Source of the DNA: Phlegmacium glaucopus
Taxonomy: Eukaryota; Basidiomycota; Agaricomycetes; Agaricales; Cortinariaceae
Assembly: GCA_015039465.1 (NCBI GenBank)
Contig: MU129999.1
Location: 1-64,000 of the forward strand
Length of the DNA: 64,000 nucleotides
Direction: 5' to 3'
Positions 3,937 through 51,744 of the stretch are shown here, in pieces. How positions within the stretch are numbered: position 1 is the stretch's first letter; each line of letters begins with the position of its first letter. The position numbers and the translations under genes were made by a program. Below the pieces are notes generated by a model that had not been told where the DNA came from, did no database searches, and was given only the letters and a program-made list of their open reading frames with translations.

Positions 3937-4036
3937 CGTGGCTCATTCATACGTCTGCTGCGCATCACTACTGAATTTGTTGGGTGAATAGCGTTCAGTT
4001 CTCTCAGTAAACTTCTTGGCTCCCGACGCAATTGCC

Positions 4037-5424: not shown

Positions 5425-8294
5425 GTTTTATTGCGCCGAGTCCTTGAGTCCGCTCTTCTTCTTCTATACGTTTTCTTTAAACACTTTTTTACCTGTGTCT
5501 ATCTTTACGTGGCAACGCGAAATCTTTTTGACTTTATCGATTAACCTAAGGGTTTTAAATCTGAGGTATGCTTTAATATCTATACCGTTTAGCCACTGAC
5601 TTCACGACTTCACACTCTAAAGAAGGTTCGTGGAGATGGGTTTCTATACCTCTAGGTATTGATACCTTTATTAGCGCAGCATAGTCTCAATAGGTTTGGA
5701 TACCTTTGTCAGTGGAGTTGCAATTGGTCATTTTGCAGGGGTCGGTCATTTGTATCATCACTGTAGCCGACACGCGTACGGTTGCCACAGAGTTCATGGC
5801 CGGATTTCTGCTTTCCAACACGCGTGTCGGCTATTTCAACTTTCAATTCTCAATTTTCTCAACTTGCTGCTGATCTGGAGGGGCTTCCCGTTACGACTGA
5901 GCTTGTTATAACTGTCTTCGGTGCTTCTGGTAATCTGGTGTGTGGTATTATGTCTACTGCATATTTTAAACCTCGCTTCAGTTTTATTGTATGAGTCACT
6001 TAAGACATTCCAATTGAGCACTAGCAGGGCTAGCAAAGACTTGTGCAGCTTCGGCGAGTACATCATGCAATGCACACCATATGGTTAGGTATATTACGAG
6101 TTGATAAGGTAGATGTCAACCACAACCCGTAAACATCGCATGTTGTGACGCCTGTGACCCATACGGTCATCCAAATATGGATGAAAGATAAGAATGCCTC
6201 GATATCATCTTGTGAAGGCGGATTTTGGCAAATCTGCCAAATGAGAACTCTTCTAAAGTAAGTTATTAACATCTTGTCCGCGTTTTATTCTTATCAGATC
6301 AGCCAATGCAGAGGAGTTTCCCTCGGAATGTCGAAATCTGACAAGATTACCCACAGCTTGTCAGAGAAGGTGAATTCTTGTGCGAGAAGTGCCTCTGGTG
6401 TCATCTCAACTACTTTACATTACTCTTTTCTAACTCTTATAACAGCTTTTCAATGTTTGGTAGTACTCGATGCCCCAATACTTGCGCGATGCCATCAACG
6501 TCTCCAGAAATTAGAATGAGAGCAACGCTGTTTGGCTGTCAAATCTGACCCAAAGCAACCTGAATGTTTGTCTGACGAGATAGTGTAGCTTTACACTTTC
6601 TAGGCATGGGCAGATGAACGGAGAGACGAAGCTCTGGCTCTAATCATCAGGCAATCTCTGCATAGAAAGTACTAAATTGGAAACTACATCACAATTTCAT
6701 GTATTTATATAAATCAAAGTACATTTATGGGTAGCAAGGACCTCTCTCTACAGTTCTCATTTGGCACATTTCGGATAATCATTGGATGAACGTGTCAAAC
6801 ACGTGTTCAATCCTAAATTAATGTGTCTCGTCCAAATTTGGATGCTGTCACATTTTGCACGTGACATTTGACGATTGTGGTTGAGATCTACCTTAAGATG
6901 GGTGGTGATTGTGGTGAGTAATTCTTGTTGATTTGATGCTTTCGGTTCTCATCCAACCACAAACACTGCAAACATTGATCCCCACAAACCTGTTGCCATA
7001 ATCCAACATAGATATCACTGGCCTGCATAAGGGCAGTGGACGCAGCTCTTCTTTTCGTGTCCTACTGATCTCGAACCCAGGTCTCTGATTATCCAGTATA
7101 TTCATTACTCACCTCCAGCTCCCTCGCTGAACTTGTCACCCCTTGCATCTTGCCCATTTCCATCACAAGCCCAATCAACAAGACCTGCTACCATGCTGGT
7201 CCATGCACGCTCACCAACTACGATATCTCACCACCTACCACTTATTATTGGTGCTTACAATTCCGCAAAAGCATTCCCAAGCACGCCACCACCTCTGGCC
7301 ATTCCTAGGGCTGCTTGCTCTCTAGTCACCCTGCTCTATTTCTCAGGTATACCGGTCACTTTAATTCTCATCCAATTTATCAATTTTCTGTACTTGAAGT
7401 TGCAAGGATCCATTTGCGGCTTAGTGGGATCGAGTTGTTAGGAATCAGCACTCCCCTCTTTTCTGGTATTCTTCTTTGAGCTCTCATTTCATTTCAATAC
7501 AATTGTGCCATTAACGGGGTAAAGAATTACGAAGGAAACGGCTGGATGGGTCGTGGAAGGAGAACTAGTGAGGAACATGGAGGTACTGTATGTTGGGTAT
7601 GTTCACTGGTGCCGAAGTGCTGCAAGCGCACATTTTAGGTGACATGATAGACTCGGCTATTGCTAACGTACAATAGGTCCATGGACTCTGCTCAACTGCA
7701 CATTGTCAGTGGTTATATACAAATCTTGAAGAATTCTTTTGGAACTAGTGATGTTACAGCCCAGCTCAGCCTCAATACTGCGGCTTAGGCTCGGCTTTCG
7801 AGGGCTCGGGCTTCCAAAATATGAAGCCCAAGCCACCGTACCTTAGGATAAGATAAGAATATGAGACAGTATAGTATTGAATAGGAAATGACTTAGGGAT
7901 GTATGAATATACTGGGTGTGTCTGGCGGGTCATGTACTGATGGCCCAGATATCGGAAATCCGATTTGAACTTGATCTGTTCAGATCAAAACTTTGGGGCA
8001 ATCAGAAATTCCAGGAATCCCCGTTTTGGGCAAGCTGTCAAGTCCTGAGTGTTTGGATAAGCAGATGGCATTGTGTAGAGGCCGAAAAACAATCTAGCCG
8101 TACCAAACACTGAAGGGAGTAGGTGGGCGGGTCAGAAAAAAAATTGCTGATGAAACTTAGATGATGCCAGCAAGACTGAAAGGAAAGATGGTTGATGTTT
8201 ATTGTTGCATCTGATCTTGTGCTATATCTTTGTGCAGAGGCATTTTACCAGCTGTGGCCTCTGCTGCTTCTGTTAAGTTTAAATCAAGGGGTAA
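5425..8294. other. Gene-poor spacer, no gene seen
   Basis: I find no convincing coding frame here. There is a 14-15 bp inverted pair (6235-6249 and 6752-6766, GCCAAATGAGAACT type) that could be the ends of an old small element. A GC-rich inverted pair (TAGCCGACACGCGT near 5,765 and its inverse near 5,820) could form a stem. The stretch 7,770-7,850 is a run of AGCCCAAGCC-like words. All are weak. Confidence 0.4.
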
Positions 8295-9211
8295 TGTTGG
8301 AGTAACTCCAGAACAAGTAACAGAAAGGACTTTGGCCTCAGCGTATGTGCTGTGCCGCCCAGCTCCTATAGTGTCCTGATTTTGGAACCGGAAGAGAAAG
8401 GAATAAGATGGAAGACCTCAGTGACTTAGAGGATGAACAAGAGGAGGAAACTAAGTTGATATTTGAACTAAGGAAAACATACAAGTTTTGAGTACTTAAA
8501 TAATAAAAGGAATAGCAACCAAAATATAAAGGATAAATATAAAGTGCTGCATTCTGCTCCTGGAAGGTCCTGCATTCTTGGGTGAATAATCCATAGCAGG
8601 TGTAGTGATGCCAAAGTTCGGTTCTGAACTGGTGCAAGAACCGAGAACTGAAAGAACTGAACTGTCAGTTCAGGTTCAGTTCAGTTCAGTCCAAGGATCT
8701 TGGACCATCGGTCCAGTTCTCGGTTCTCATATTTCTAAGATTTTGAGAACCAGGTTCAAACTGGTTTAAACTGAACTTTATGTAGTTTTTTTTTTCTTAA
8801 TTTTTCCACAGAGAATTGAATTTATAATCTATAAAGTATTGTTAGGTGCCCGACCCAATGTTTTGGATTTTGGAGTTTGAAAAATTGGCCTCATTTCAGC
8901 CAGGAACCTTTCAGTTCGGTTCTTGGTTCACCAAAAATAGTTGAAGAACTGAACTGAACTGAACTTTGGCATCACTAAGCAGGTGTGATGACTGATAGTG
9001 GGAAAGTGATGACAAAGAAAGAGTGGTAGTGTCAAAGATGTGGTAATGAGTTTGGAGTAATGTCGGAAGAGCCGGAATGAAATGGAGAAGTCTCGGAGTT
9101 GGACATAGGAGAGTAGATCCGGGAACAAGGGAAAGTACTGGAATGGAGTATGGACTTCTGGAGACAACTCCAATGGAGCTGGGCCGGAGTGACATATAAT
9201 GGAATGTAACA
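8295..9211 (-). repeat. 3' LTR of gypsy copy 1
   Basis: In element orientation it begins TGTTACATTCC and ends CCAACA. It matches the LTR of gypsy copy 2 (51745-52317) and the solo LTR at 46063-46620. Without the 375-bp MITE and its 8-bp duplication it would be 534 bp. Many CG dinucleotides of copy 2 read CA or TG here. Confidence 0.8.
8603..8977. mobile_element. hAT-type MITE, TAGTGATGCCAAAGTTC ends
   Basis: Ends TAGTGATGCCAAAG and CTTTGGCATCACTA are inverted. The flanks AGCAGGTG (8595-8602 and 8978-8985) form a perfect 8-bp target duplication. The 375-bp body is built from GAACTGAACTGAA-like words. TIRs of the form TAG-G and 8-bp duplications are the hAT signature. The uninterrupted LTR at 46.3 kb confirms the empty site. 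Confidence 0.85.
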
Positions 9212-9353
9212 GTACCTCCCTGTCAAGGCCCAGACCCTCGAGGCCACATGGTGGTCCATGCAAGGTTGACGTGGTATAAAGACTGTCAGAGACTGGTTGT
9301 GACTCTTCACTTCAGATAACTTCCCCAAACCCCATCGTCTTAACAAAAATGCT

Positions 9354-10407
9354 ATGAACACCAACAACAACAATGCTGGCTCCTCAAGCTCCCAACAAGC
9401 AAAGTTGGAAGTGGCTCGGGCCCGGATTCAGAGCAAGCAGGAGGCAGAGAGGAGAGTGCAGGAGGCTGAGGAGAAGGAGTTGAGGGAGTTGGAGGAAGCG
9501 GCAGTGGAAGAGCGGAGGGAGTACGAGGAGAGACAGAGAGTGGAAATGGAACAACAGAAAGTAGAGGCAGAGAGGAGGAGAAGAGAGGAGGAGCAGCAGC
9601 AGCTGTGGGAGATGCAATGGAGGCAGCAGGAGGAGCAGAAGAAGAGGAAAGCGGAGGCAATCATGGTTGACAATGACAATAAAGAAGAAGAGGAAGAGGA
9701 AGGAAATGGAATGGAATGGAGCCGGGGCCAAGTGCCCTGGAAAAAAGAAAAACAAATGACAAAGTAAGTGGATCAAAAATAGGAATGGAAAAGACTAACG
9801 GAAAACATAGGAGGTCTTTCAGACCAAGACAAAGAAGAATCTGGCATGCACCCAGTGCATAGACGCACACGAGGTGTGCTACAAGAAGAGCAGCAGGCCA
9901 GGGTGCTGGTGCTGCTATGTGTGGAAGATCACATGCAGCTTGGTCAGACGGAAATGGAAGACAAAGGAATGGACAGAGGAATGGAGCAGACGGGTGGATA
10001 AGGGAAAAGGGAAGGAGGTAGTGCCAGCAGCGGAAGGGATGGAGATGCTAATGGAAGAGTTAGAGATGATAGGAGGGTTGTTGCGGAAGTTGGTGGAGAC
10101 ACAGGAGGGAATGAGGTTGGGGATGGAGGTGCGGATGAGGCGGGAGTTGGAAAAGGAGAGACAGAAAGAAGAAAGGAGACAAGAGGAGCAAAAGCGGAAG
10201 GAGGTGACAAAGGCAGAGAAGGGTGTGGAAATGGAGAGGCAAGAGGAGACGGAGGACAAGGAGATGGAAACAGATGATGGGGAAGAGTTGGAGATGGAAG
10301 GAGGATGGGAGAGAGTGTTGGAGGAAGGAACAGAAAGAACAGAAGGAGAAAAAGAAGAAGGACCAGAGAAGGATGGGATGGAAGGAGTAGAAAAAACAAA
10401 AGAGTAA
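9354..10407 (+). pseudogene. Antisense spliced gene of the gypsy element: coiled coil, NLS, Zn2Cys6-like cluster (copy 1)
   Basis: Opposite in strand to gag-pol, this gene opens at 9354 just inside the 3' LTR. Exon 1 encodes a Glu/Lys/Arg/Gln-rich coiled coil (about 130 aa). An intron with donor GTAAGT (9764), branch-like ACTAACG and acceptor TTTCAG (9822) leads to exon 2. Exon 2 has six cysteines spaced C-x2-C-x6-C-x8-C-x2-C-x6-C (9847-9936), then an acidic coiled-coil tail to 10,407. Relative to copy 2, one base is gained near the A-run before the donor, so the two exons are out of frame here. C6 clusters bind DNA as dimers in fungal transcription factors, and a regulatory role in the element is inference. 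Copy 2 has the same intron. Confidence 0.65.
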
Positions 10408-10841
10408 AATAGAAAAAGAATTGTATATAATTTTTTTCTTGTTATTTCTTTTTGTTTTATTTTATAAAAAATTGTTTTCTTGACTTTGTTTGTGCAAACA
10501 GAAAAGTAAGATAACAGAAAAAGGAAGAAGATGGAAATGAACATGGAAGGGACGGAAAGACAAGGAAAGGAATGGAAAAGGAATCAAGAGAGTGGAAGAG
10601 GTCCAGGTTTAGCTGGGTAGCTCTGGTGGAAATCAGCAACAAGTTTGGATGCATGTCCTAATTCATTAGCTGGTAATCAGGAAGTTTCTTCATTGGTACC
10701 TTCATAGCCAGACCACTTGACTAGGTACAGGAGCTTGCATACACGCCGTCTGTTGTCCAATTTAGAGTCCAAAATTTTGGAGACCTCAAATTCCTGTTCT
10801 CCATCAATGATGACTGGAGGGGGCGGAGGTTGAGTACAATC

Positions 10842-19481: not shown

Positions 19482-20445
19482 CTAGCTTATTGTCTCCTTG
19501 TACAACGGACTGACTTCCTGAAACTGTGCACCTGCAGTAGCAGAAATGTCCATCCACATTGCTGCTTTCCGCGCCGCGTATGCTGCGGCACCATTGTCTC
19601 CCGCTGCTACTGCCACAGTTCTGCGTTCCATCCATATCCCAGATTGATACATGTAATATCTGACTGTCCATCCCATTTCATATCCTACAAGAATGAGTTC
19701 TTCCTTCCACCTGTGATGTTGAGCCCGCGCACGGAGCCAATGAACTCGATTAACTGCATGATCAGCATTAAACACAACACTGTCTCAATTGACTCACATT
19801 CACGGAGCCCCTCGGAAGTTTTGCAATTTGCAGTAGATCTGCTTTGCCAGATCCAGGATAATTGGTGCCTTGTGGATCCTGGCTCATTTGGATTTAACAT
19901 TGCGGTGCTGCTGCGGATATCCTGGCAGAGAAGGGGGCGATACTTGGCCAGGGTGGCAGTATCTGCTCCGAGTTTAACGAGCGCACTACGACATCGTCCA
20001 TATATCCGGCAATGATATCCAATACGATAATTAAGTTGTGCAATGGCTGAGCGTGCGCGGGTATGGACACTCTTTCTAGGTGCCACACGGATGATGTGGG
20101 AGAATTGAAATGATTTGTCAGCAATGAGGTCCCGCAATAACTTCAATGTTCGTGCAGCCTGCTCCATACGCAATTCTAGTTCCATTACCCGAGAGGGATT
20201 GTCTTCAGGACCCCATGTAGATGGCATGGATATATATCTGTTCTCAGGTAACACAACATCGATGCCTGCGGTCGTACTCGTGGTGATGGGCTCCGGTGTG
20301 ATGTTCGAAGAGTCATGCATATTCTCTTGTTCATCCAGGTCGTCAAACAATGTGACATCCTGATCCTGCAGAGGTTGTGGCGGATCCACTCTAGTGCCCG
20401 TGGGTACTGTGCCGTGCTGGAGACGATCTAATGTGTCAATGTTTT
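19482..20445 (-). pseudogene. KDZ transposase, C-terminal part, displaced from its N-terminal part
   Basis: The frame contains the KDZ C-terminal region: VMELELRMEQAARTLK, TRARSAIAQLNYRIGYHC and RCRSALVKLG, then an intron (GTGAGT at 19797 to CATGCAG at 19754, 44 bp). It ends with VHWLRARAQHHRWKEE and WTVRYYMYQSG, stopping at 19482. The upstream end abuts a copia 3' LTR at 20446. The codon at the break continues the frame that stops at 29459 on the plus strand, when both flanks of the copia insertion (ACATT) are fused. It is therefore the missing C-terminus of the transposase at 26,660-29,459. Confidence 0.85.
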
Positions 20446-20705
20446 TGAATGTGCAGGGTAACCGAGATAGGATAGAGCTAAAGATTATTAGACCTCAGTG
20501 ATAATAAACACTATGCATTCAATAATAAGTACCTAAAGATTATTAGCTAAAGGAAGAGTAAGTAAAAGATATATAATACGAAGACCAAGCGACTTACACC
20601 TCAGTGATAATAAACACTGAGGTGTCACATAAACGAGAGTGACCTTTAAAAGAAAGAAATTACGTAATATTAAATAAGCGGATAACTAGTGTAATAAGTT
20701 CAACA
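20446..20705 (-). repeat. 3' LTR of copia element 1
   Basis: In element orientation it starts TGTTGAACTTATTACAC, directly after a purine tract GAGGGGGAG. It matches 29460-29719 with only two mismatches in 260 bp. It contains ACACCTCAGTG...CACTGAGGTGT, an 11-bp stem with an 8-base loop (20597-20626), and a second, shorter copy of the same word. The far flank reads ACATT, matching the flank of the other LTR. Confidence 0.9.
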
Positions 20706-20729: not shown

Positions 20730-23700
20730 TTAACGAAGCCCAAGGAGGTCTCGAAAAGCAACGAATTTGTTTCGCGAGAGAGATTTAGTAAAGATATCGG
20801 CAATCATGTCGGAGGTAGGGCAATATTTGATAAAAATGTGGCCAGAAGAAATAGTTTGTCGAATAAAATGGAAATGAACGTCGATATGTTTGGTGCGACC
20901 GTGAAATGTCGAGTCTTTGGACAAGCGGATAGCACCTTGATTATCACAAAAGAGAGTAGTAGGTAAAGTAAAAGAGAAAATATTAGAAAATTTTGAAAGA
21001 AACTTATGTATCCATAGTATATCCTTGGAAGAATGAGTGAGGGCAACGTATTCGGCTTTGGTGCTGGATAAAGTGACGATAGGTTGTTTCTTGCAGCTCC
21101 AGGAGACAATTCCGATACCAATAAAATAGACAAAACCAGATATCGAGTGTCGATGTAGATGAGAAGCCCAGTCTGCATCAGAATAGCCAGTAACCTTGCT
21201 ATGAGTACTGCCCAATACGAGTTGTAGATCTTTAGAACCTAATAAATACTTGAAAACACGAGTGACGGCCTTTAAGTGAGTCGTATGGGGGGTTTCAAGG
21301 TACTGAGACAAGGTTGAAACAGTGAAAGAAATGTCGGGACGAGTCATTACAGCGATGTACATAAGCGAGCCGATCATTTCGCGGTATTTCGTCTTTTCAC
21401 AAGGAGTAAGAAGGGTAGGCGAAACTCCTCGCGAATCTGGTGTTAAGTTGATTCCGGGTTCTAGTGGTGTGACTGCGATACGGGAATCTTCTAAGCCAAA
21501 ACAAGTAATAATTTGCTCAATATAAGACAATTGGGATAGGGACATTGTACGAGTTTCGAGATCGTGTGTGATCTTGACTCCAAGTAGCCAGTTAATGGGT
21601 CCAAGATCGGTGATTTTGAATCGTTGACGAAGTTGCTGTTTGAAAAATTCAACCGATTTGTCAGAATCGGCAATGATAGTGAAATTGTCAGTCGCAGCGG
21701 CAACTATGATGTACTTATCATTGTCGAGTTTGTAGAATACGGCTTCATCAGCTTGTGAGACTGTAAATCCAAGTCCAGTAAATGTATCGACAACTTCGAG
21801 GTACCAAGCGCGAGCACCTTGTTTAGTCCCATAAAGTGGGCGACGAAGTCGACATACTAGATTTTTGATATTTCGCAAGTTATTGGGTAAATCGCGAAAT
21901 TCATGATACAGAGGGGGGAGATTCATATGAATCACCTCGTCCTCTTGTAGGTAGGCATTAAGATAGGCATTTTTAACGTCGATTTGATGAATGGAAGCTC
22001 CTTTTTGAGCACCAAAAGACAATAGGATGCGTAAGCTTACAGGGCGGACTGTGGGAGCGAAAGTTTCAGTGTAATCAACACCAAACTCCTGTCTATATCC
22101 TTTTGCGACTAATCTGGCTTTATATTGAGCGATATTCCCATCGGCATCACGTTTACGGCGAAAAACGTATCGGCATGGTATCACGTTGGTACCGTGTGGT
22201 GCATCGATAAGATCCCAAGTGTGTAACTTTTCGATCTGGGTAAGTTCCGCTTCTATTGCATCCGTCCATTGTTCTTTTTCACGACCGCTAAGTGCTTCCC
22301 TCAAGGTAGGTTCATCCTCTTGGTTAGCAACCATTGCCATCTCTAATTCATCTTGGAACCAGTCGGTCTTGCAGACGTCTAGTTCTACTCCCCCTGGTTC
22401 AAGATTTTCGCTCGCTTTGACTGCGAAAACAGCCTCTCCATGTTGAATATTTAGTACGTCAGACTGAACAATTGCATTCTTTTGAGTTCATCTTCCGCAG
22501 CCGTATTCATTGGAGTTATACTGTTGTAAGCCTTTAAGTGAGTTTCGTCTTTGTCTTGGATGGGTTGTAGGTGTTGACATTGACTGAGACTCGTTTGATT
22601 GTAGGTTGGGTACTTGAGATTCAACAGTAGGTAGGATCGGTAAGTTCTCAGTTTCATTGTTGAGAATTTGGGGTTGATTCGTTTCATTTTGAACTTTAGG
22701 TTCATTGGGAGTGATTTTAGAAGGTTTGAGAGTGTCGTTGGGTTTTTTAGGATCGTCCGGATTGGAAAATATGTCCCACTCCCCCTCGATTTGGACGTCA
22801 TTCAATTGTAAGACTTCATTTTTATCAAAATAAATGTCTCTTTCAATCGAAACCTTCCTTTTTTCAGGCCAGTATATCCTGAGACCTTTCGATTCATCGT
22901 CATAACCCACAAAACGCCCTTTCTCAACTTTTGAGTCAAGTTTTGAAACGTTTAACTTCTTTACCCAGGCTGTGGCCCCCCATTCATGCAATTGCGAAAG
23001 GTCGGGTTTCTTTCCGGTTGCCTTTTCATATGGGGTTTTATTTTCATTTATGGATCGAGTGGGTACGCGATTACGAATCCATACGCTATGTGATATAGCT
23101 TCTGCCCATAGGTTTCTTGGTAGTCCGGAAGCCGCTATCATTGCGAGTGCGCATTCAACATGTGTTCAGTTGGCTCGTTCGGCTGATCCATTTGAAGATG
23201 GAGAATCATGAACGGTAAGATGACAAACCGTTCCTGATTTTTGGAGATGTTCACTAAAAACTTTACTAGTGAATTCACCACCTCGGTCACATCCGAAAAT
23301 TTTGATTGTTGTCCCGCGTTGACTTTTAACCCAAGCCTCGTATTTCTGGTAGTTTTCAAACCCTTCCAACTTTGCTCGACAAAAGTAGACTCGTTCCTCG
23401 TGACTCGACAGGTCCTGGTATAGCTGGTAGTATTTATTTCAACCAAGTGATTCTACAGGAGCTGGACCCCAGGTATCAGCAACCACCTTATCACCATATT
23501 GCTGATATTTGGTTTCGCTCTTTTTAGGAAAAGGTTTTCGAGTCGCTTTTGCTTTTATGCAAGGTTCACAGAACTCGGGTTCGGATGCAAAATCGAGATC
23601 CACTCCTTTTACCATGCCGTTTTTGACCATCTTGCATAAGTCGTCATAATTTACGTGACCCATTTTTCTATGTAGATCATTGATTGACATCGGTTTGATT

Positions 23701-23903
23701 GTAGCATTTGCGGTAAGTGACTTTAGGAGTTTCGGCTCTTCCATTACTCGATATAGACCTCGTATAAGGGGGATATGAGCGATGATTTTGCCTTTTGGAC
23801 TTTGGATAACACATTTTCCGGCTTTAATGAATAGGGTATAGTCGGCGCGATCCAATATCCCAACGGATATGAGGGTAAATGCAAGCATCGGTGAGTAGTA
23901 TAC
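20730..23903 (-). pseudogene. Copia 1 pol: protease tail, integrase, RT, RNase H (three TGA stops)
   Basis: One frame runs from the N gap at 23,903 to 20,730. It holds the end of the protease (MLAFTLISVGILDRADYT), the pre-integrase HRKMGHV...CEPCIKAK region, integrase with DTWGP, FGCDRGGEFTSK and SGLPRNLWAEA, and RT with YKARLVAKGYRQ and IHQIDVKNAYLN. The active-site pair reads TDN in AAATDNFTIIAD where a TDD pair is expected. RNase H has GYSDADWAS, SSTKAEYVAL and TKHIDVHFHF. Stops at 23439-23441, 23166-23168 and 22488-22490 are all TGA and in the same frame. Each fits CGA to TGA at a CpG. The LTRs are nearly identical, so the damage is recent. Confidence 0.9.
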
Positions 23904-24425
23904 NNNNNNNNNNNNNNNNNNNNNNNNNNNNNNNNNNNNNNNNNNNNNNNNNNNNNNNNNNNNNNNNNNNNNNNNNNNNNNNNNNNNNNNNNNNNNNNNN
24001 NNNNNNNNNNNNNNNNNNNNNNNNNNNNNNNNNNNNNNNNNNNNNNNNNNNNNNNNNNNNNNNNNNNNNNNNNNNNNNNNNNNNNNNNNNNNNNNNNNNN
24101 NNNNNNNNNNNNNNNNNNNNNNNNNNNNNNNNNNNNNNNNNNNNNNNNNNNNNNNNNNNNNNNNNNNNNNNNNNNNNNNNNNNNNNNNNNNNNNNNNNNN
24201 NNNNNNNNNNNNNNNNNNNNNNNNNNNNNNNNNNNNNNNNNNNNNNNNNNNNNNNNNNNNNNNNNNNNNNNNNNNNNNNNNNNNNNNNNNNNNNNNNNNN
24301 NNNNNNNNNNNNNNNNNNNNNNNNNNNNNNNNNNNNNNNNNNNNNNNNNNNNNNNNNNNNNNNNNNNNNNNNNNNNNNNNNNNNNNNNNNNNNNNNNNNN
24401 NNNNNNNNNNNNNNNNNNNNNNNNN
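23904..24425. other. Assembly gap (522 Ns)
   Basis: Run of N. It should hold the copia protease N-terminus plus the outermost bases of the adjacent 1-kb TIR element. Any reading frame through it is meaningless. Confidence 1.
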
Positions 24426-25522
24426 CAGGAAAAATGATTTTGGCCCTAGGTAGCCTTGGGTAATTTGTTAGTATCACATCACTACTCAGGACATCCCAGG
24501 ACACCCCAGGACACCCCAGGACACCTCAGGACATCCTAGAGCAGCACAGGTAAAATTTTGAGTGTCACCCATTTTCTCAGGACACCTTTAGTGTATCCTG
24601 GTGCATTGACCATCTGGACCAAATCACATCAGGAGGCCCTGGGAGTCCCTTAGAATTTATGAATTTTGCTAGAAAATCTTTAACCGCCGCGTCCAGAAAA
24701 GTATTTTGCAGTTTTCTCAATAAGGAGAGCTGCTATTAATATAATTTAAACATATTCAGGGTCCTAAAACAATTCTCTACCATCTTTAAAAAATTTCCTT
24801 TTTTGGAATTTATGTAATCTACCCTGACCCAGCACCATATGCTTGAAGTCATGCTTATCTGTGATCATGTGACCAATGGTCTGTGCGCCATCCAAAAGAT
24901 ATATAAACCACCCACAATTTTGTTTTCTTATTTCCTACTTCCCCAGTATTATACTAGTATATTCATGTATCACTATTTTATTATTATTTTATTACTAGTA
25001 CTATATATGATGTTTAGAATAATTGAATATAATTTTATTGTTATTATTATTATTCTGTTGTGTGAGACCACTCAAATATCTGGTTTATATATGTTTTCTA
25101 GCATCAGATCCAAAGGGACTAAGGCTGCCTCAGGATGCTCTCAGGTTGCCTCAGGAGCATCTTGCCTCAGGACGCTCCCAGGTTGCCTCAGGACGCTCTC
25201 AGGTTGCCTCAGGACGCTCTCAGGTTGCCTCAGGACGCTCTCAGGTTGCCTCAGGATGCTCTCAGGTTGCCTCAGGATGCTCTCAGGTTGCCTCAGGTTG
25301 CTCTCAGGTTGCCTCAGGTTGCCTCTCAGGTTGCCTCAGGACGCTCTCAGGTTGCCTCAGGACGCTCTCAGGTTGCCTCAGGTTGCCCCAGGACAGCCTA
25401 AGACTTTTCATACATAGGTAACTTGCACCCCAGGGCGACCTCTTGACCTGAGCGCCCTGAGCTGCCTGGGGCACCCCAGGACATTTCAGGACAGCCTAGG
25501 GCACAAGTCATTTTTCCTGATG
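24426..25522. mobile_element. CATCAGGAAAAATGA element A with 21-bp internal repeats
   Basis: It is the inverse of element B (30674-31667), apparently with only one mismatch over the first 290 bases compared. The left tip lies in the N gap and the right tip reads TCATTTTTCCTGATG. Subterminal arrays on the left are GGACACCCCA words. On the right there are about twelve 21-bp units (TTGCCTCAGGACGCTCTCAGG, 25,120-25,395). It has no transposase. The AT-rich centre contains an open frame of no recognisable type. In the un-inverted order this copy would sit between copia gag and protease. Confidence 0.85.
25120..25400. repeat. 21-bp tandem array in element A
   Basis: Units CCTCAGGACGCTCTCAGGTTG alternate with shorter CCTCAGGTTG variants. 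Element B has a shorter array (about 165 bp), which explains most of the 100-bp length difference between the two elements. Confidence 0.9.
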
Positions 25523-26426
25523 CTGCGTTCATTACTACCCACGTAGGCCGCCATGTTGTCATGCCTGTCACACATCAGGTGCGGTCTGAGGACACATAAA
25601 TCACTCACATCTCAACCACGATGGTCCCATTGGGGCGCGTGTAACCATAAAAGCTCAACGTCAACACTCCCATATCTTTCCAATGCTTCCGAGCTGATTT
25701 AGCGATGGCTTGGCTTGCCATCCTGAGGGCCCGCCTAACGGGGAAGGCTCACATCATACAGTACCAGAATATTAGAACAATATGACGTACTTGTCTTGCA
25801 TATCCGATGGTACAGGATCATTTCCTGTCTCCCGTTTCTTGTCAATGAGAGCCTTCTTGTCCGCACTGAGGTTGTCAAGTACTTTCCTGGCGGCCGCTGT
25901 TCTGTATTTGAAGATTTCGTCTTGGGTTGCCGGTTCTGTCCTGCCATCCTCCGCGACCATAGCATTGACTACCTCCACAACCTTGTCCTCCATCTCCCGC
26001 CACACAATGTCAATTTGAGATTTCTTCCATGCTGTCGCGGCTATCTTTCTGACGGTATGATAACTGCGCCAATTGTTCGTTATCCACCGACTAAGCTTCT
26101 GTGACAAGGAGATGATTCACTTCTGTAGCTTAATTCATATAAACCCTTATTCTTACCTTTATTCGCTCTGATGCTTCTCCTTCGCTGATATCGGCACTCA
26201 CTACGCCCTTGCTGTACCAGTGGTTGAAAATATCAACGAGGATGTGTTGACGGAATAAATCATATCTTTCATCTGTGTTTATTTTCCGTCTGTACTCCTC
26301 TTTATATTTTCCAAGGACCTTTTTTTCCTCGGGAGTATATTGGCTCTCCTTCCTGGGTTTGCGGATTTTCTTTGTAATACTTTCAAGCAGGGCGGCTTGC
26401 AGAGGAGCGACAAATGCTGTATTCAT
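25523..26426 (-). pseudogene. KDZ companion gene, N-terminal part (interrupted)
   Basis: The start is ATG at 26426. Exons 26426-26157, 26098-25791, 25734-25609 and 25564-25523 are joined by GT-AG introns of 58, 56 and 44 bp, all in frame. Recognisable words are SQYTPEEKKVLGKYKEEYR, ILVDIFNHWY, LSRWITNNWRSYHTVRKIA and EMEDKVVEVVNAM. This is a protein family I associate with KDZ elements of mushrooms, divergently transcribed from the transposase; its biochemical role is unknown. The last exon ends in ...AACGCAG at element A. Its continuation is on the other strand at 31,668 (AGG TTC CTT...), which restores the codon at the break. See the inversion finding. Confidence 0.75.
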
Positions 26427-26659
26427 AATCCAGATCTGGGGAACAAGGACTGGTGAGAGAGCGCAACAAGATTTTAATTTGCTTTTATTGGGATGTTCTA
26501 TCATATGTCCACCACATGTGGTGACCATGCGGTGGACCTGTGGTAGACCACATGTCCCACTTTGCACCACATGTCCAACACATGGCGATAAGGGACAAAA
26601 ATAGTGTGACCTGTCATTGGACCATCCTGAGACAGCTCTCCCTTCCTTTCCACCAGAAC
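26427..26659. promoter_or_regulatory. Shared divergent promoter of the KDZ transposase and companion gene
   Basis: The two start codons face away from each other with 233 bp between them. Within 26,500-26,585 there are at least five CATGTG/CACATG-type words (ATATGTCC, CCACATGTGG, CCACATGTCC twice, ACACATGG). The CCACATGT core is E-box-like and could bind a bHLH factor or a protein of the element. Function is inference. Confidence 0.5.
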
Positions 26660-29459
26660 ATGGAACCATCTAAGCGTCCGACCAAAAGAAGGAGGAAGGG
26701 AGTACGTCGACTAGCAGAAGATGATGATGAGGCGGCAGATGGGATAGCAGTCAAAACAATCCTCAGGCACACTGCTGATGGTCCTGTGGAGGAGAGGTGT
26801 GAAATGCCTGTCTGGACAAATCGACCGCCACCAGCATCTACCACAGACACACCTCCAAGGGAAACATCTGACAACCCCTCAGCCTCGATTGAGGTAGATA
26901 ACCTTGATTTTCCACAGCCCGAATCTCCACCAGAAACCGCAGGGACTGCACGGACGCAACAATACTATCTTCAGGAATTCGTCCATCGTGTAGATCCAAT
27001 GCTCAGGGCACTACTTGCGCGGGAGGTCGTCCCTCACAAGGCAATGTGTGGCCGATGTCCGGAGAGCAATATTGCAAGGTGGCGGTGTTGAGATTGTACA
27101 GCGGCCCGAGTCATGTGCCGCGGGTGCATACGGGATTGTCACATGGAATGTCCGACACACCGGATTGAGGTATGGACCGGCACATACTTTCGTCCAGCAG
27201 ACCTATGGGAGGTTGGGATATATATTCTCATCCGCCATCAGATGGAACCGATACTGTGTGCTACACTGCGATTTCAACAAGACATACTTGAGAAATTCCA
27301 GCAAAATCATGATGAAAAAGAACAACGTACACTGGCAGCTGGTATTTTGCCTGGTTTGATGGAAGGGAATGCGAACAGTGGAATAAACCATGGCCGCACA
27401 GATATGGATGTGGATCCAGGAGACACTGAAATTGATGAAATGGACGCAATGTATGCTCAGTGTGATGATGAGGACGATGCTGATTTTGCCCGACGGCTGG
27501 ACAACATATACCGCAGAAGGCAGCAAGGGGTGGATATCCTTCAGGAAAATGTGGAGGATGTGTGGGAGGACAATGAGAGAGATGAAGATGACACTGAGTG
27601 CCTTGCTTTGCCGACAAACTATATGCCGTCTCCAGAGGTCACCAAAACCGATGCATCAGATGCCGCGGAACCCTCCAGTAACTTTCAAACGTCTGGGAAC
27701 TATGCCGCCGGTGATGTTCCACGGGTTGATGCACTGAACAATCCATATGTACGGGTAGTGCATACCAATGGTATCCACCATGTTGCACTTGTATTTTGTT
27801 CATGCCGCGGCAAGGAGACGACACATACCGATTTGATGACCGCGGCTCTACTGCCAACAAGTTTCACGTGTTATCGGACAGTGTTCACACATGCTGTACT
27901 GGATGATTTTCGTCTTTCCAATCTGGAATGTAAGGCCTCAGCATATCAATATTTTCAGAAGCTTTGGCGCCAAACATCACCAATGTCTCCGGACACTGTC
28001 CCAAATTTATATCATGAGCTCCGGAGAATGTCACGGATATGGAGATGGACGAAGAAGCTGAAGTGGGCCGGGATTTCCTACAAGTCAGGCATAACAACCG
28101 ATGCGAACCCAGGTGAACTTGCCAACTTTTGTCCAGCATGTCCGCAGCCAGGTATCAACCTTCCAGAGAACTGGTGCATGGACCCTCAACGGTAAATCTG
28201 ATAGCCTGGATAATTGCATTGAATACTGATATATACAGATGGGTTTATCAACGGTCCTTTGTCGCAGATGGGAATTTCAAGGCCGACCATGTCCGTCAAC
28301 CGCATGCCGCGACTGAGGTGTGGCTGTCTGAGGGTGGAGGGATGACTAGCAAAAGAAACAACTATGAGGAGTTCCTACACACTGCAGTTGAGAGGTCAAC
28401 AGTAAGTCCATGGAAATATGCCCGTGGCCGCATCTAATGTTGGGCGCACACAGAAGGCACCATGTGAAAATCAGTTCAGGGCCATTGAAATGGCAATGTT
28501 ACTATCCAAGGCATGTGATATCACCGGAATTGTGGCCATTGCGTGTGCCCGCCACGGATGCTTTGCTCCGAACAGCGTCGCAAACTTGTTCCGTGGGGAG
28601 CAACAAAAGAATGTAGATTGGGCATTTTTACAAGCCTTGAAAACAACCAATATCGACAACCGCCAGGGGGTGATGCTTATCTATGACATTGCCTGCCAGT
28701 ATATTATCCATTTGCAGGACCGTATCGGACACCTGTTACCTGTGGACTTGAAGATCGACTCAGCCATCGGCCTCTTTCATGTCCATGGTCACAAGGATGC
28801 TTGCTTCTTTAGATATGCAACATCATTCATCCCAGGGGCCGCGGTCGTTGCCGGAGAGATATTGGAGAGCCTTTGGGCCATACACTCCAGCAATGCGCAT
28901 GGCAACCCTGGCTCATCGCACAGAAATCATGGATGATCATATGACTGATTCAAATCACAAAAAATTGCTTGGCATGGGTCAGTGTCCACGAATATATGAA
29001 GCGTATGGAACCTCACTTGTCCATTCAGCTGTGTCACTTGCGGACAGATATATATTAGCCACGGACACCTCCCAAAGTGCAATTGAGTATTTTCAGAAAC
29101 TTATCAAAGGAATCAGTGCGAATGATCTTGAACAATGGGAACAGGATATTCAACAGGCTGAGAGTAGCCGACTGCAGGATCGAACTGTCATGGACATTCT
29201 CGGTGCGCAACAACCAGAACAGAAGGAGCCCGCGGCACCCTCTGATCACTCTGATGGCCGCGGCACTGTTGAACAATGGATCCAATTGGCCATTGACATT
29301 GAGGAGAAACAGTCAGTGCACCTCATGCATCTTTACAGACATTAATAGTCCTCCTTTAGGATTGAGATACAAGACCGTGTCCACCGTGGAGTTCTGGACC
29401 CTGCTGGCACTGACAGGAATGAGGTTGAGCGCTTACGGCAGCTCCTGACATCAAACATT
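26660..29459 (+). pseudogene. KDZ transposase, N-terminal and catalytic part
   Basis: The start is ATG at 26660, with a basic N-terminus (PTKRRRKGVRR). A CxC2-type cysteine cluster follows at 27,042-27,160 (MCGRCPESN, WRC-x-DC, MCRGCIRDCHMECPTHRIEVW). The KDZ catalytic region has SFVADGNFKADH, LSEGGGM, ITGIVAIACARHGCF, VMLIYDIACQY, GLFHVHGHKDACFFRYATSF and AGEILESLW. Introns are 28192-28238 and 28402-28453. Defects are TGA at 27089-27091 between WRC and DC, and a one-base shift near 28,870 after ESLW. The frame recovers as MATLAHRTEIMDDHM. It then ends at the copia 5' LTR at 29460 and resumes at 20445 on the minus strand. It is a cut-and-paste transposase now inactive in three ways. Confidence 0.9.
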
Positions 29460-29719
29460 TGTTGAACTTATTACACTAGTTATCCGCTTATTTAGTATTA
29501 CGTAATTTCTTTCTTTTAAAGGTCACTCTCGTTTATGTGACACCTCAGTGTTTATTATCACTGAGGTGTAAGTCGCTTGGTCTTCATATTATATATCTTT
29601 TACTTACTCTTCCTTTAGCTAATAATCTTTAGGTACTTATTATTGAATGCATAGTGTTTATTATCACTGAGGTCTAATAATCTTTAGCTCTATCCTATCT
29701 CGGTTACCCTGCACATTCA
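29460..29719 (+). repeat. 5' LTR of copia element 1
   Basis: It begins TGTTGAACTTATTACAC and ends near CTGCACATTCA. It differs from 20446-20705 at two positions. The left flank is ACATT (29455-29459), shared with the far flank of the other LTR. The internal hairpin word occurs as in the other copy. Confidence 0.9.
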
Positions 29720-29735
29720 AAAGGTTATGGGCCCT
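29720..29735 (+). promoter_or_regulatory. Copia primer-binding site (initiator-Met tRNA type)
   Basis: Immediately after the LTR the sequence reads AAAGGTTATGGGCCC. Copia-class elements commonly prime from an internal half of initiator-Met tRNA using a GGTTATGGGCCC-like site. The overlapping ATG at 29727 is therefore unlikely to be the gag start. Confidence 0.7.
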
Positions 29736-29750
29736 GACGACGTCTCCAAG

Positions 29751-30673
29751 ATGAATTCTATGTCAAACACAGGTCAAGGATTAACAATTCCAAAGCTTCA
29801 GCCAAACGGCTCCAATTGGACGACGTACGCTGAAAGAGTAATGAATTATCTTACTTCAAAAGGCCTGAAGAGACACGTCACTGGGACAGCGCGTAAACCG
29901 ATTGAACTAGTAGCAAGAGCGGGTGCTTACTATAGACCCAGTTCCCTAATACCTTTATCGGATGACGAGATCCAAAAACACGAGACTGAACAGGACGAAT
30001 ACGAGCAACGACAGGCAGCCGTTCGCGAAGTTATTTACCGATCGATTGATAGCTCAACGTTCATTCAAGTCAAAAACGAACCCAATGCCACATCTGTATG
30101 GAAAAAGATTGTGTCAATTCATGCTGACAAGGGTTCTATGTACGAAACGAACCTTCTTACTCAATTGCAAACAAGCCGATACATTGATGGCCAAAGTATG
30201 CGAGAACACTTGACGAAAATGATTGAAATCAAAGAGAGACTGGCTGAAATGAACTGCCAGATTTCCGACGAGTCTTTTGTGGCATATATCCGAACCTCTC
30301 TATCCCTTGCACCCAATTTTCAATCTCTAATTACGACGCTAAGCGCTGCCGCACATGAATCTGGGAAGAAACTCTTGAGCACGAACCTAATTTGGCACCT
30401 CAATGAAGAGGCTAATTCTGTAGCTCTTGAGGAAAGCATAAACAAATCCAATGAGGCGATGATAGCGGCCACTGCGAGAGCTCGAAACCCAAACTGGAAA
30501 GGGAAAGAAAAATCACAAAGGGAAAGCAAACGATGTTCGAACTGCAAAAAGAAAGGTCATACCGATGATAACTGCTTCGAAAAGGGTGGTGGAAAAGAGC
30601 ACAAGGCTCCGGATTGGTGGAAAGAGAAGAAGAAGAAGTCTCAGGCTACAAAGGGGAAGTCAGCGAACGTAGC
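29751..30673 (+). pseudogene. Copia 1 gag, cut by element B
   Basis: I take ATG at 29751 as the start because the upstream ATG lies in the primer-binding site. The frame carries the copia gag/UBN2-type core (GSNWTTYAERVMNYL, SVWKKIVSIHADKG, RYIDGQSMREHLTKM, ELAEMNCQISDE-like) and a CCHC zinc knuckle CSNCKKKGHTDDNCF near 30,540. It is open to ...KGKSANV, where CATCAGGAAAAATGA of element B interrupts it. The rest of the polyprotein lies on the minus strand at 23,903-20,730. The frame itself has no stop codon. Confidence 0.85.
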
Positions 30674-31667
30674 ATCAGGAAAAATGACTTGTGCCCTAGG
30701 CTGTCCTGAAATGTCCTGGGGTGCCCCAGGCAGCTCAGGGCGCTCAGGTCAAGAGGTCGCCCTGGGGTGCAAGTTACCTATGTATGAAAAGTCTTAGGCT
30801 GTCCTGGGGCAACCTGAGGCAACCTGAGAGCGTCCTGAGGCAACCTGAGAGCAACCTGAGGCAACCTGAGGCAACCTGAGAGCATCCTGAGGCAACCTGA
30901 GAGCAACCTGAGGCAACCTGAGGCAACCTGAGAGCATCCTGAGGCAACCTGAGAGCATCCTGAGGCAGCCTTAGTCCCTTTGGATCTGATGCTAGAAAAC
31001 ATATATAAACCAGATATTTGAGTGGTCTCACACAACAGAATAATAATAATAACAATAAAATTATATTCAATTATTCTAAACATCATATATAGTACTAGTA
31101 ATAAAATAATAATAAAATAGTGATACATAAATATACTAGTATAATACTGGGGAAGTAGGAAATAAGAAAACAAAATTGTGGGTGGTTTATATATCTTTTG
31201 GATGGCGCACAGACCATTGGTCACATGATCACAGATAAGCATGATTTCAAGCATATGCTGGGTCAGGGTAGATTACATAAATTCCAAAAAAGGAAATTTT
31301 TTAAAGATGGTAGAGAATTGTTTTAGGACCCTGAATATGTTTAAATTATATTAATAGCAGCTCTCCTTATTGAGAAAACTGCAAAATACTTTTTTGGACG
31401 CGGCGGTTAAAGATTTTCTAGCAAAATTCATAAATTCTAAGGGACTCCCAGGGCCTCCTGATGTGATTTGGTCCAGATGGTCAATGCACCAGGATACACT
31501 AAAGGTGTCCTGAGAAAATGGGTGACACTCAAAATTTTACCTGTGCTGCTCTAGGATGTCCTGAGGTGTCCTGGGGTGTCCTGGGGTGTCCTGGGATGTC
31601 CTGAGTAGTGATGTGATACTAACAAATTACCCAAGGCTACCTAGGGCCAAAATCATTTTTCCTGATG
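30674..31667. mobile_element. CATCAGGAAAAATGA element B
   Basis: Perfect tips CATCAGGAAAAATGA and TCATTTTTCCTGATG, 994 bp. The flanks give a possible 2-bp duplication AG (30672-30673, 31668-31669). It is inverted relative to element A. The right side holds GGGTGTCCTGGGGTGTCC words and the left side CCTGAGGCAACCTGAGAG words. It bounds the inverted segment on the right. Confidence 0.9.
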
Positions 31668-32995
31668 AGGTTCCTTGATATTTTTGAAAAACAGGTGGAT
31701 GATATACAGCGCAAAATGATTGATTATGTCAAACTCCTTAAGCGGCCCAGCACAAATCAACCCATCATCCAGTCCGCCATTCCCAGGCTGAGGTCCGATC
31801 TTGATATTCAAACAAAGGATGGCTATCCATTGATGCCGCCGGTGGACGACAACATAGAGCTGAAAAAAGAAGAATTAGAAGACTTACTGCGGCGTTATTT
31901 AAATGCTCATTACAGTGAGTGATTCATGGAGTCTACGGCCGCGGACTGATCTTGCTTGTATTATCAGGACTCGCCTCAGGCAATCGGAAGTCCCATGTTC
32001 CATTTGGCAACCTCTGTAATGACGCCAGCCACTTTGTCCACCACAAGTACGTTCCAGGCGGGTTCATGTGGAAAGACCCACGTAACATGACAAAGGCCGT
32101 GGCGGTGGACCTGTGCAACCATATCCGGAAGCGGCAAAGTGAATACGGCCCTGAGGAAGGCTTTCGGTTTCAGGGATATTTTGATGGGAAAGATATGGTC
32201 AAGGCAGAATATGGTAGACGGGTGAATGAAGAACAGGCAGCAGCAAGAGCAAAGAAACGGCAGGCTACACGGAAAGAGAAAGGCGCGGGTGAGCATAGAG
32301 TGAAGAAGGGACGGAAAACAAAGCCAAAGGAAGGCGCCTTGGTCAGGAACATCCAGGACACACCAAATACTGTGAATGACATTGCCGCGGCATCGGCCCC
32401 TGAACAACGCTCCGCGGTCAGTGAACATGATGGAAGTGAACTTACTCTGGATGAAGCAATGGCATATGTACCAGTAATTGATCCATCACTTCTGGCTTCA
32501 GGCGAATCAACAGGGGGCACCGCTGTCCCCCAACATCAGGATGCGACAGGAAGAATCATCAATGACATTGAAATGCAAATACTGAACAACAATGGCTATC
32601 CAGCGTCCATCCCTATTAACGGCCCGAGTGAGGGCCCTCCAAGATACTACGTGCCTGCCGCGGCCCTCAACCTACTCCCTGCTAAGGGACAATCAGCATC
32701 GGATAGATGTCCCATGGGATCACAGCTGCAGGTCATGGAGCAATACAATCCTCTGGAAACCCTGCAACCTCTGTCACAAGGGCAACACCGCGGCAAAAGA
32801 GACCATGGCAATGCCGATCCTATTCTACCACAGCGCAGTCTTCGAGGGAAAAACATGGACCCACCAGACACCAATCCCCCTTTGAACAAGACAAGAAAGC
32901 GGACGAAGAATGCCGATACTCAGGCCGCAGAGGAAGCTCAGCAGTTACTGGCAGGTTCTCAAGGAAGTCGTCACAGGAGGGATGCAAGACGTTAA
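31668..32995 (+). pseudogene. KDZ companion gene, C-terminal part
   Basis: It begins AGG TTC CTT GAT at the edge of element B, in frame with the exon ending at 25,523 on the other strand. It contains DIFEKQVDDIQRKMIDYV, GYPLMPPVDDNIELKKEELE, an intron (GTGAGT about 31,915 to TATCAG about 31,968), then SHVPFGNL, KYVPGGFMWKDPRNM and a Lys/Arg-rich stretch (KKRQATRKEKG). A long variable tail ends RHRRDARR and TAA at 32,995. The region after the intron is one open frame. No catalytic motif is visible. Confidence 0.7.
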
Positions 32996-48499: not shown

Positions 48500-49296
48500 C
48501 TTTACACTCACCCACCAGTCCGATTGGACTCCGAGTAATCCGATCAGAATCCGATCAGAATCCGATCGGACTCCGAGTAATCCAAGTAAAAACATCAAAA
48601 GTCCGAGTTCAGTCCGAGCTCAGTCCGAGCTGAGTCCGAGTCCAAGTAATTTTTTTACTTGGACTCGGACTCAGCTCGGACTGAACTCGGACTGAACTCG
48701 GACTGCATCAGGAAAAATGATTTTGACACCTTTAGTGCATCCTGGTGCATTGACCATCTGGATTAAATCACATCAGGAGGCCCTGGGAGTCCCTTAGAAT
48801 TTATTTAGAATTTATGAATTTTCATATAAAATGTTCAACTGCCGCGTCCAGGAAAGTATTTTGCAATTTTCTCAATAAGGAGAGCTGCTATTAATAGAAT
48901 TTAAACATATTCAGGGTCCTAAAACAATTCTCTACCATCTCTAAAAAATTTCCTTTTTTGGAATCTTATGTAATCTACTCTGACCCACCATATGCTTGAA
49001 ATCATGCTTATCTGTGATCATGTGACCAATAGACTGTGTGGGAAGAGGACAAACATGGGCACAAACAAGTAGTCTAAGCAATTTACTTGGACTGAGTCTA
49101 AGTAAGTCCAATCAGAATCCAATCGGAATCTGATGACATACAGTCCGATCAGATTCCGAGTAAGTCCGAGCAATTTACTCGGACTGAACTTGGACTGGGC
49201 TCGGACTCAAAACTTGAAAATGGCTGGTGCTCCAGCCAAATTTGAGTCTGATCGGACTCCGATTAGTCCGATCGGAATTAGTGGCTTAGTGTAAAG
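48500..49296. mobile_element. TIR element E4, CTTTACACTCMCCCAC family, internal word GTCCGAGT
   Basis: Left tip CTTTACACTCACCCACCAGT and right tip its diverged inverse ...GTGTAAAG. The body is made of CCGATCAGA, TCCGAGT and GGACTCGGACT words. A truncated CATCAGGAAAAATGA element (48,716 to about 49,040) sits inside. The left neighbour is hAT MITE copy 3, the right neighbour is gypsy integrase, with no duplication, so the flanks do not belong together. Confidence 0.7.
48716..49040. mobile_element. CATCAGGAAAAATGA element C (deleted derivative)
   Basis: It starts CATCAGGAAAAATGATTTTG, then jumps to the GACACCTTTAGTG block of elements A and B, and follows them to ATCATGTGACCAATAG. The left array and the whole right half with the 21-bp repeats are missing. 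Confidence 0.75.
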
Positions 49297-49301
49297 ACCT
49301 C

Positions 49302-50011
49302 TCTCTCATTAGCGGAATTCTCCTACAACAATACTCCGAGTGCCACTACCGGTGTATCTCCGTTCTTCACCAACAAAGGCTATGATCCGGCTCTCACTAT
49401 CCATCCGGAGTACGACCTCCCGTGCTCACAAGTACATTACGGACCTTAACGAACTCCACGAGGAACTCCGAAAAGCTATCCTTACTTCCCAGGAACAATA
49501 CCAACGTTCCGCAGACAAGCGTCGGATTCCTCCTCCGGACTTCAAGATTGGAGATCGAGCCTTTGTCAAAGCACAATTCTTCCATACAACCAGACCTTCA
49601 AAGAAACTCTCCGAGAAGTATCTTGGTCCATATGAGATTATTGCTCAGGCAGGTCCTTTGTCTTGGACCCTTTGTCTTCCCGACAACATGCGTGCTGTCC
49701 ATCCCGTCTTCCATGTTTCCATGCTAGAGCCCTCCGTTCCGAATACTATTCCGGATCATACTCAACCTCCGCCTCCTCCGGTCGTCATTGACGGAGAGCA
49801 GGAATTTGAGGTCTCCGAAATTTTGGACTCTAAATTGGATAACAGATGGCGCGTATGCAAACTTCTGTACCTAGTCAAGTGGTCTGGCTATGAAGGTACT
49901 GACAAAGAAACTTCCTGGTTACCAGCTAATGAGTTAGGACACGCGTCCGAACTTGTTTCTGATTTCCACAAGAGCTATCCGACTAAACCCGGACCTCTTC
50001 CGCTCTCTTGA
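49302..50011 (+). pseudogene. Gypsy copy 2 integrase end and chromodomain
   Basis: AEFSYNNTPSATTGVSPFF, then a small deletion/frame change near 49,420 (after HPEYDLP), then AHKYITDLNELHEELRKA, RRIPPPDFKIGDRAFVKAQF, WTLCLPDNMRAVHPVFHVSM and the chromodomain [18 protein letters not shown]...[12 protein letters not shown], ending GPLPLS and TGA at 50,011. Chromodomains at the integrase C-terminus target chromovirus integration to heterochromatin in several fungi. Only the 3' third of pol is present. Confidence 0.85.
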
Positions 50012-50171
50012 TTTCTTTTCCTTTCCTTTCCTTGTTTCTCCGTTCCTTTCTTTGTCTTTTCCGTTCTGTTCCTTTCTGTTATCTTACTCTTCTGTTTCAC
50101 AAAACAAAGTCAAGAAAACAAAATTTTATAAAAAACAAAAAGAAATAACAAAAAAAAAAGAATTATACAAT

Positions 50172-51604
50172 CTATTTTTCTATCCACTCTTTTGTTTCTT
50201 CCACTTCTTCCATCCTTTCTTCCTCCACTCCATCCATCCTCTCCATCTCCGCTCCCAACCCTCCTTCCACCTCCGACTCTTCCCCGTCATCCGTTTCCGA
50301 CTCCTCGTCTTCCGTCTCCTCTTGCATCTCCGTTTCCACTCCCTTCTCCGCTTTCATCACTTCTTTCCATTTTCTCTCCTCTTCTCTCCTTGCTTCCTCC
50401 TGTTTCTCCTTTTCCATCTCCCATTTCTCCTTTTCCACCTCCCGCCTCACATCAGAAAAAAATAACCTTGGCCTGGCTGGCTCTGGCTGCCCTGGCCTGC
50501 CCTGGCCAGCCCTGAACATCTTTGGCTAGGTTTAAAAATCTGAAAAAATGCTAACAAATCACAGAAATATTTATAGCACCCAATTTCAAAAAAAGTACAC
50601 AATTACATAAGACAGATGCTGAGATATTAAATATATTAAATTATTTTAATATATTTAATATCTCAGCATCTGTCTTATGTAATTGTGTACTTCTTTTGAA
50701 ATTGGGTGCTATAAATATTTCTGTGATTTGTTAGCATTTTTTCAGATTTTTAAACCTAGCCAAAGATGTTCAGGGCTGGCCAGGGCTGGCCAGGGCAGCC
50801 AGAGCCAGCCAGGCCAAGGTTATTTTTTTCTGATGCATCCGCACTTCCATTGCTATCCTCATTCCCTCCTGCGTCTCTGCCATCTTCTTCAATATCCCCG
50901 CTATCATGTCCAGCCCCTCTATCAATACCTCCATTCCGTCGTACCCAGTCGCTACCTCCTTCCCTTTTCCCTTGTCCACCCGTCCACTCCGTTCTTCCGT
51001 CTGTTCCTTCATCCTCCGTTTCCCTCCGACCAGGCTGCACCCCATCTTCTGCTGGTAGCGCCTCCAGCAGCCAGGCCCGCTACTCTTCTCCGTAGCACAC
51101 CTCTTGTGCATCGTTACACCGACTGCACCCCGGGTTCTTCTTCGTTTTGGTCTGATAGACCTCCTATGTTATTTCCGTTAGTCTTGTTCCATTTCTGTTT
51201 TTTGTTCCACTTACTTTGTCGTTTATTTTTCTTTTCTTCGGGGCACTCGGCCCCGGCTCCATTCCATTTCCTTCTTCCTCTTCTTCTTTGTTGTCGTCGT
51301 CGTCCACCGCGATGGCCTCCGCCTTTCTCTTCCTCTGCTCCTCCTCCTGTTGCCTCCGTTGCAACTCGCGCAGCTGCTGCTGCTCCTCATCTCTTCTCCT
51401 CCTCTCCGCCTCTACCCTTTGTCTCTCCGCTTCCGCCTTCCGTCTCTCCTCCTCCTCCTCTAGCCTCCGAGCCTCCTCAATCTCCGCTTCTTCCCGCCTC
51501 TCCTCCTCCTCCCGCTCTTTCCATCGTCGCTCTCTTGCTTCTTCGAGCCTTGCTCGTTGCAAGGCAGGAGGAAGGGAGGGGCCAGCTTTGTTGTTGTTGC
51601 TCAT
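50172..51604 (-). pseudogene. Antisense spliced gene of the gypsy element (copy 2)
   Basis: It opens at 51604 (MSNNNKAGPSLPPALQRA), 140 bp inside the 3' LTR. Exon 1 is a charged coiled coil with many EERR/EAER words and ends in PKKRKINDK, an NLS-type sequence. An intron with donor GTAAGT, branch-like ACTAACG and acceptor TATCAG joins it in phase 0 to TKTKKNPGCSRCNDAQEVCY, the start of the C6 cluster. One extra base after CY shifts the frame before the remaining three cysteines. The frame of the second half continues through GMRIAMEVRM, is split by the 386-bp foldback element, and ends in the acidic tail near 50,172. The intron is conserved in copy 1. Confidence 0.65.
50450..50835. mobile_element. 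386-bp foldback (palindromic) element, CATCAGAAAAAAATAACC ends
   Basis: The two 190-bp arms are almost perfect inverse copies meeting at TTAT (about 50,641-50,644). The tips CATCAG/CTGATG are shared with the CATCAGGAAAA family. Next to each tip is an array of GGCCAGGGCTGGCC words. The flanks show a 2-bp CA duplication (50448-50449, 50836-50837). The empty site is seen in copy 1 of the antisense gene near 10,137. Its RNA would form a long hairpin. Confidence 0.9.
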
Positions 51605-51744
51605 GGTGTTTTTATTACAAGGATGGGTTTGTGAGAGTTAACCGAAGTGAAGAGTCACCACAGTCTCCGACGGTCTTTATACCACGTCAACCTCACACGG
51701 ACCATCACGTGGCCTCGAGGGTCTCGGCCTTGACAGGGAGGTAC

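Follow-up and report, generated by a model that had tools for sequence, protein, structure and literature searches.

The described systems closest to the locus presented here are inversions between inverted repeats, exemplified by human inversions (PMC3961182) and by a flip/flop region of 24 kb on Saccharomyces chromosome XIV (PMC9731477). Two groups of DNA transposons are also relevant: PlavakaB elements, for which section 3.2.2 of PMC12730594 gives CATCA..TGATG termini and a 2- or 3-bp target duplication, and KDZ (for Kyakuja-Dileera-Zisupton) elements, for which a 7- or 8-bp duplication is given in the same paper.

The window, i.e. the whole stretch of DNA that was analysed, corresponds to the initial 64 kb of contig C9 (466,588 bp), and relatives of its components were searched in the same genome (60.5 Mb in 259 contigs). 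An earlier note on this DNA had proposed that positions 25,523-30,673, located between two inverted elements (hereafter A and B), are flipped relative to an older order, and the comparison with relatives confirmed it. Compared with the copia, KDZ and companion-gene relatives possessing both parts (7/7, 4/4 and 9/9, respectively), a segment of 5.15 kb (25523-30672) is inverted, and its breakpoints lie at A and B. The components are nested: a KDZ transposon carries a copia element in its transposase gene, A and B, in whichever order they inserted, lie in the copia element and in the companion gene, respectively, and the flip came last. It is almost certain that this nesting, the derived order and the coincidence of the breakpoints with A and B hold jointly.

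The copia element is bounded by two LTRs inverted to each other (29460-29722, + strand, on the gag side; 20443-20705, - strand, on the pol side), which are 263 nt long, 99% identical and differ at 2 of 263 positions, so that the insertion was considered as fairly recent. ACATT is present on both sides, at 29455-29459 and, on the reverse strand, at 20438-20442. The gag open frame (29688-30672, + strand; Retrotran_gag_2, 75.3 bits) is cut by element B, and pol is represented by several open frames (20730-23903, - strand; RVT_2, 178.4 bits; SH3_retrovirus, 77.1 bits). Separate searches of the genome with a stretch of gag (29723-30664) and one of pol (22500-23903) gave 16 and 12 other matches, respectively. 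Both were found on seven other contigs (C180, C145, C154, C243, C221, C164 and C13), all of which have gag and pol in the canonical order and orientation; among contigs holding both, the window is the only place where they are opposed. The spacing is 337-359 bp on five of the seven; an N run lies between gag and pol on C164, the two are 24 kb apart on C13 with an N run after gag, and gag itself is split by another insert on C145 and C154. The copia copy of C180 (99% identical) continues without a break across the site at which gag ends in the window and A inserted, with AG as the target. That the flip joins copia gag to its own pol is thereby borne out by the order of the relatives, the joining letters themselves not being part of this evidence.

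The interrupted transposase was recognised by its KDZ (PF18758, 111.7 bits, cut-off 26.6) and CxC2 (PF18803, 70.2 bits, cut-off 27) Pfam domains, both located in the N-terminal part, which extends from 26660 to the copia insertion at 29459 (+ strand); the C-terminal part lies beyond copia (19688-20437, - strand). The parts before and beyond copia were searched separately across the genome. The three other DNA matches of the C-terminal part (two on C228, one on C224) all adjoin N-terminal matches on a colinear strand, with spacings of 451, 971 and 1171 bp, where skipping copia predicts 432, 1009 and 1165 bp. The parts are colinear on C47 too, by protein match, and no C-terminal match was found in the stretch of C134 examined; they are thus colinear in all four relatives in which both were found, among five examined. 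Position 29459, at which the N piece ends, completes a codon in a frame matched weakly by C47 (34 residues, E 4e-5), and the best match of the C piece is in the frame whose codon starts at 20437. The statement that the transposase reads on in frame without copia stands as regards phase and colinearity, but, ACATT occupying 20438-20442, the frame resumes at 20437 and not at 20445. Two in-frame stops near 29345, in the N-terminal part, are read as sitting in a putative short intron.

The companion gene is divided into a left, N-terminal part (25523-26426, - strand, with putative introns) and a right, C-terminal part (31668-32995, + strand), and no Pfam match over the cut-off was obtained for the two companion-gene open frames tested. 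In a DNA-level search of the genome, both unique companion stretches matched only themselves; it was thus ruled out that the assembly contains the locus twice. At the protein level, the left part matches 13 other places, nine of which have a right-part match nearby; the other four have none among the matches listed. The halves are on one strand and in order in all nine, and in eight of them the spacing is within 12% of the prediction of the flip (897 bp against 901 bp, 972 bp against 967 bp and, for the worst of the eight, 1041 against 934); on C227, it is 3,152 bp against 973 bp predicted. These nine relatives are not fully independent, as C241 and C176 look like near-duplicates. On C176, 98 bp separate the end of the left-part match (26 residues, 46%) from the right-part match (83 columns, 34%), against about 89 bp predicted by the flip, and the right-part exon has its frame open for 18 more codons upstream; the last short left-part stretch before the junction has no match of its own beyond chance on this contig. 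For the flipped order, the companion gene had been described as reading across B with its codon intact: order and spacing in the relatives and a compatible phase agree with this, apart from the stretch next to the junction.

The transposase and the companion gene point away from each other, ~230 bp separating their likely starts (26426-26660). Divergent matches to both were also found on six other contigs (C47, C193, C138, C223, C224 and C227), so that the pair looks like a conserved two-gene transposon, with a companion lacking a Pfam match over the cut-off. Several CCACATGT-like repeats were observed between the two genes (26490-26590), which are possible candidates for a shared promoter or for transposase-binding sites.

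As the flip predicts the protein-anchor spacings seen in relatives of three unrelated families, the agreement was considered as more than chance. The earlier note had counted three independent joins from one operation; all are backed by the arrangement in relatives and not by the joining letters, and only two breakpoints stand behind them, since the copia and transposase joins share the left breakpoint and are two tests of one junction, the companion join testing the right one. Relatives with the present order, or pieces misfitting their family, were looked for in the genome itself and not found. On these sequence comparisons, the present order is almost certainly derived.

Element A (24426-25522, + strand, in L-to-R orientation) is a non-autonomous PlavakaB-like transposon that lacks its left flank and its initial 3 bases, CAT, because of an N gap, and whose R end, ATG at 25520-25522, is followed by CT. 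Element B (30673-31667, - strand) is an inverted copy of A, complete from CAT to ATG, with AG at 30671-30672 and 31668-31669 as its 2-bp target duplication. Of the bounds proposed earlier, the end of A at 25,522 is exact, but B starts at 30673 and not at 30674, the element including CAT...ATG. The two align in three inverted arms: 24426-24834/31256-31664 (409 nt, 100% as rounded), 24833-25156/30937-31260 (324 nt, 99%) and 25325-25530/30665-30870 (206 nt, 99%). They are the same over their first 270 bases and 99% alike elsewhere outside a 21-bp repeat array, which is ~105 bases longer in A than in B; besides this array, differences are found at positions 271, 408-410, 423 and 539.

Of 457 candidates for the family, 40 were scored and 39 full-size places other than A were retrieved. 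With few exceptions, B and the sampled copies share the same ends, consisting of two bases, CATCAGGAAAAATGA, the body, TCATTTTTCCTGATG and two bases; the CATCA..TGATG termini are complete in B, and in A except for the CAT falling in the gap. Exceptions among the 39 other copies are a degenerate right end in L070 and one base near an end in L083 and L089; the left end of L094 is cut by an N run. Once A and L094 had been left out because of N at their flank, the outer two bases matched in 33 of the 39 testable copies (32 of 38 others, and B), against a chance level of ~13%, the six mismatched copies being L070, L072, L088, L089, L097 and L099. The terminus, with at most one mismatch, occurs 234 times forward and 234 times reverse in the genome (control: 15 and 9). 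There are at least 183 Plavaka-domain matches in the genome among the matches listed, none tied to elements with A/B-type ends; together with the KDZ/CxC2 matches, they suggest that the DNA is from a basidiomycete. When the first 409 bases are compared, B is equalled in its closeness to A by at least six other copies, and five copies are nearer to B than A itself is. The identity of A and B thus points to a young family and not to a special pair, and their similarity was rejected as the mark of a special relation. Both elements are near-identical and inverted, as first described, but the similarity is family-wide. The A/B family is one of young, non-autonomous elements with PlavakaB-like ends.

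Several further observations concern this family and the rest of the window. The R-side flanks of A and B (25523-25530 and 30665-30672) share 7 of 8 bases, CT[GA]CGTTC, a likeness reached by 3 of 2888 flank pairs with about 1 expected by chance; it is possibly a coincidence, and no target preference of this kind is visible in other copies of the family. One full copy (L088, C153:19873-21291) directly abuts an inverted 477-bp partial copy, its outer flanks, GA and TA, not matching, and this arrangement is either a rearrangement or an assembly fold-back. In the window, a truncated and diverged relative of A and B (~90% identity) is present at 48706-49038, with no gap. A near-perfect palindrome of 386 bp (50450-50835), mismatched at 6 positions and without spacer, is bordered by CA on either side and has CATCAG..CTGATG as its termini; it resembles a fold-back element whose ends are Plavaka-like. 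Other components of the window are a long, diverged inverted similarity between 8978-10836 and 49759-51979 (gypsy-type debris, 77-82% identity), integrase, chromodomain and RNase H matches in or near the other debris, and an open frame with a phosphotransferase (APH) Pfam domain (3992-5599, 46.2 bits).

The following history would lead to the present order. A two-gene KDZ DNA transposon (transposase and divergent companion) would have been hit by copia inside the transposase; two copies of a young non-autonomous PlavakaB-like element, inverted relative to each other, would have inserted into gag and into the companion gene, respectively; and homologous recombination between A and B would have flipped the 5.15 kb between them. 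That the flip is such a real inversion, as regards both its occurrence in the genome and its mechanism, is given an even chance. Over evolutionary time, inverted repeats of 1 kb that lie 5 kb apart are expected to recombine frequently, as known from yeast work. The N gap (23904-24425, 522 N) is the only N run of the window and, as the earlier note stated, lies at the tip of A, the contig resuming at CAGG, 3 bases inside the element. In the C180 copia copy, gag and pol anchors are separated by 337 bp; ~330 bp of copia is absent from the window, and the gap should hold it, judging by this copy. The nearness of the 522-N estimate to the ~330 bp expected weakly favours a real inversion. Target duplications were also considered as a test of order and rejected: both insertion sites read AG, so that the present and flipped orders fit alike, and the outer flank of A is inside the gap.

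A local flip between inverted repeats is a classic assembly ambiguity, and in the best-surviving alternative, given slightly less than an even chance, the order in the living genome is still the ancestral one, and the 5.15-kb interior was turned the wrong way round by the assembler at the inverted A and B, the contig breaking at the tip of A. The gap is exactly at this tip, which is the end of a high-copy repeat (see the terminus counts above), and the 270 identical bases at the start of A and B are all that a read switch needs. Copy L094 likewise has an N run at its start, a second pair of close inverted copies among those scored, on C153, is abnormal as well, and 6 of the 38 testable other copies are without matching duplications, which indicates that errors or rearrangements do occur in the family. 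Against an assembly flip, the matching duplications in most testable copies suggest that the assembler usually bridged the family correctly, and the internal differences between A and B are at most about 270 bases apart, flanks counted, so that reads of a few hundred bases could tell one from the other. Unpaired terminus matches (44 in the first 100 of 468 listed) were dropped as a sign of gaps, the copy at 48706 being old, truncated and gapless. We lean slightly towards a real inversion over an assembly flip.

It is unlikely, at about one chance in eight, that the interior flips back and forth in living nuclei via A and B, both orders coexisting in the strain or population; if so, the PlavakaB-like family, being young and high-copy, would generate small reversible inversions more generally in this genome. 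Aberrant transposition, in which one end of A would have been used with an end of B, would suit a family that is young and repeated, in a genome with that many Plavaka-domain matches, but such events usually lose an end or create a new duplication; B has both of its ends and a matching AG on either side, A is intact up to the gap, and this origin of the inversion was considered as very improbable. The view that the order seen here is ancestral, with the three joins a coincidence, can be dismissed on the relatives compared, as no support for it was found and every relative with both parts, in each of the three families, shows the other order.

Whether real or made by the assembly, an inversion between inverted repeats is a well-known, ordinary kind of event. 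The flip has no evident function, because in both orientations copia interrupts the transposase and B the companion gene, and a function hanging on it is little likely. If the inversion is real, it is a small rearrangement dated after three nested insertion layers, in which a young mobile family reshapes the genome. If it is an artefact, the assembly contains an error that can be checked, and gene models interrupted by inverted repeats next to a gap call for comparison with paralogues.

The components of the locus can each be compared with known systems. With Ty1/copia, the retrotransposon shares gag and RVT_2 domains over the cut-off, paired LTRs and a 5-bp duplication (ACATT); it differs in that, as assembled, gag faces pol instead of being colinear with it, and in the stretch missing in the gap. 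With KDZ transposons, the transposase pieces share the CxC2 and KDZ Pfam domains, but the transposase is interrupted by copia and paired with a divergent companion gene. A and B resemble the PlavakaB elements of Agaricomycotina (PMC12730594) in their termini and 2-bp target duplications, and differ from them in being only ~1 kb long, in having no transposase match here and in carrying a 21-bp repeat array. Finally, the inversions of PMC9731477 and PMC3961182 have in common with the window a segment between near-identical inverted repeats, found in inverted order, whereas here a single assembly is concerned and the repeats are short transposons lying in mobile-element debris.
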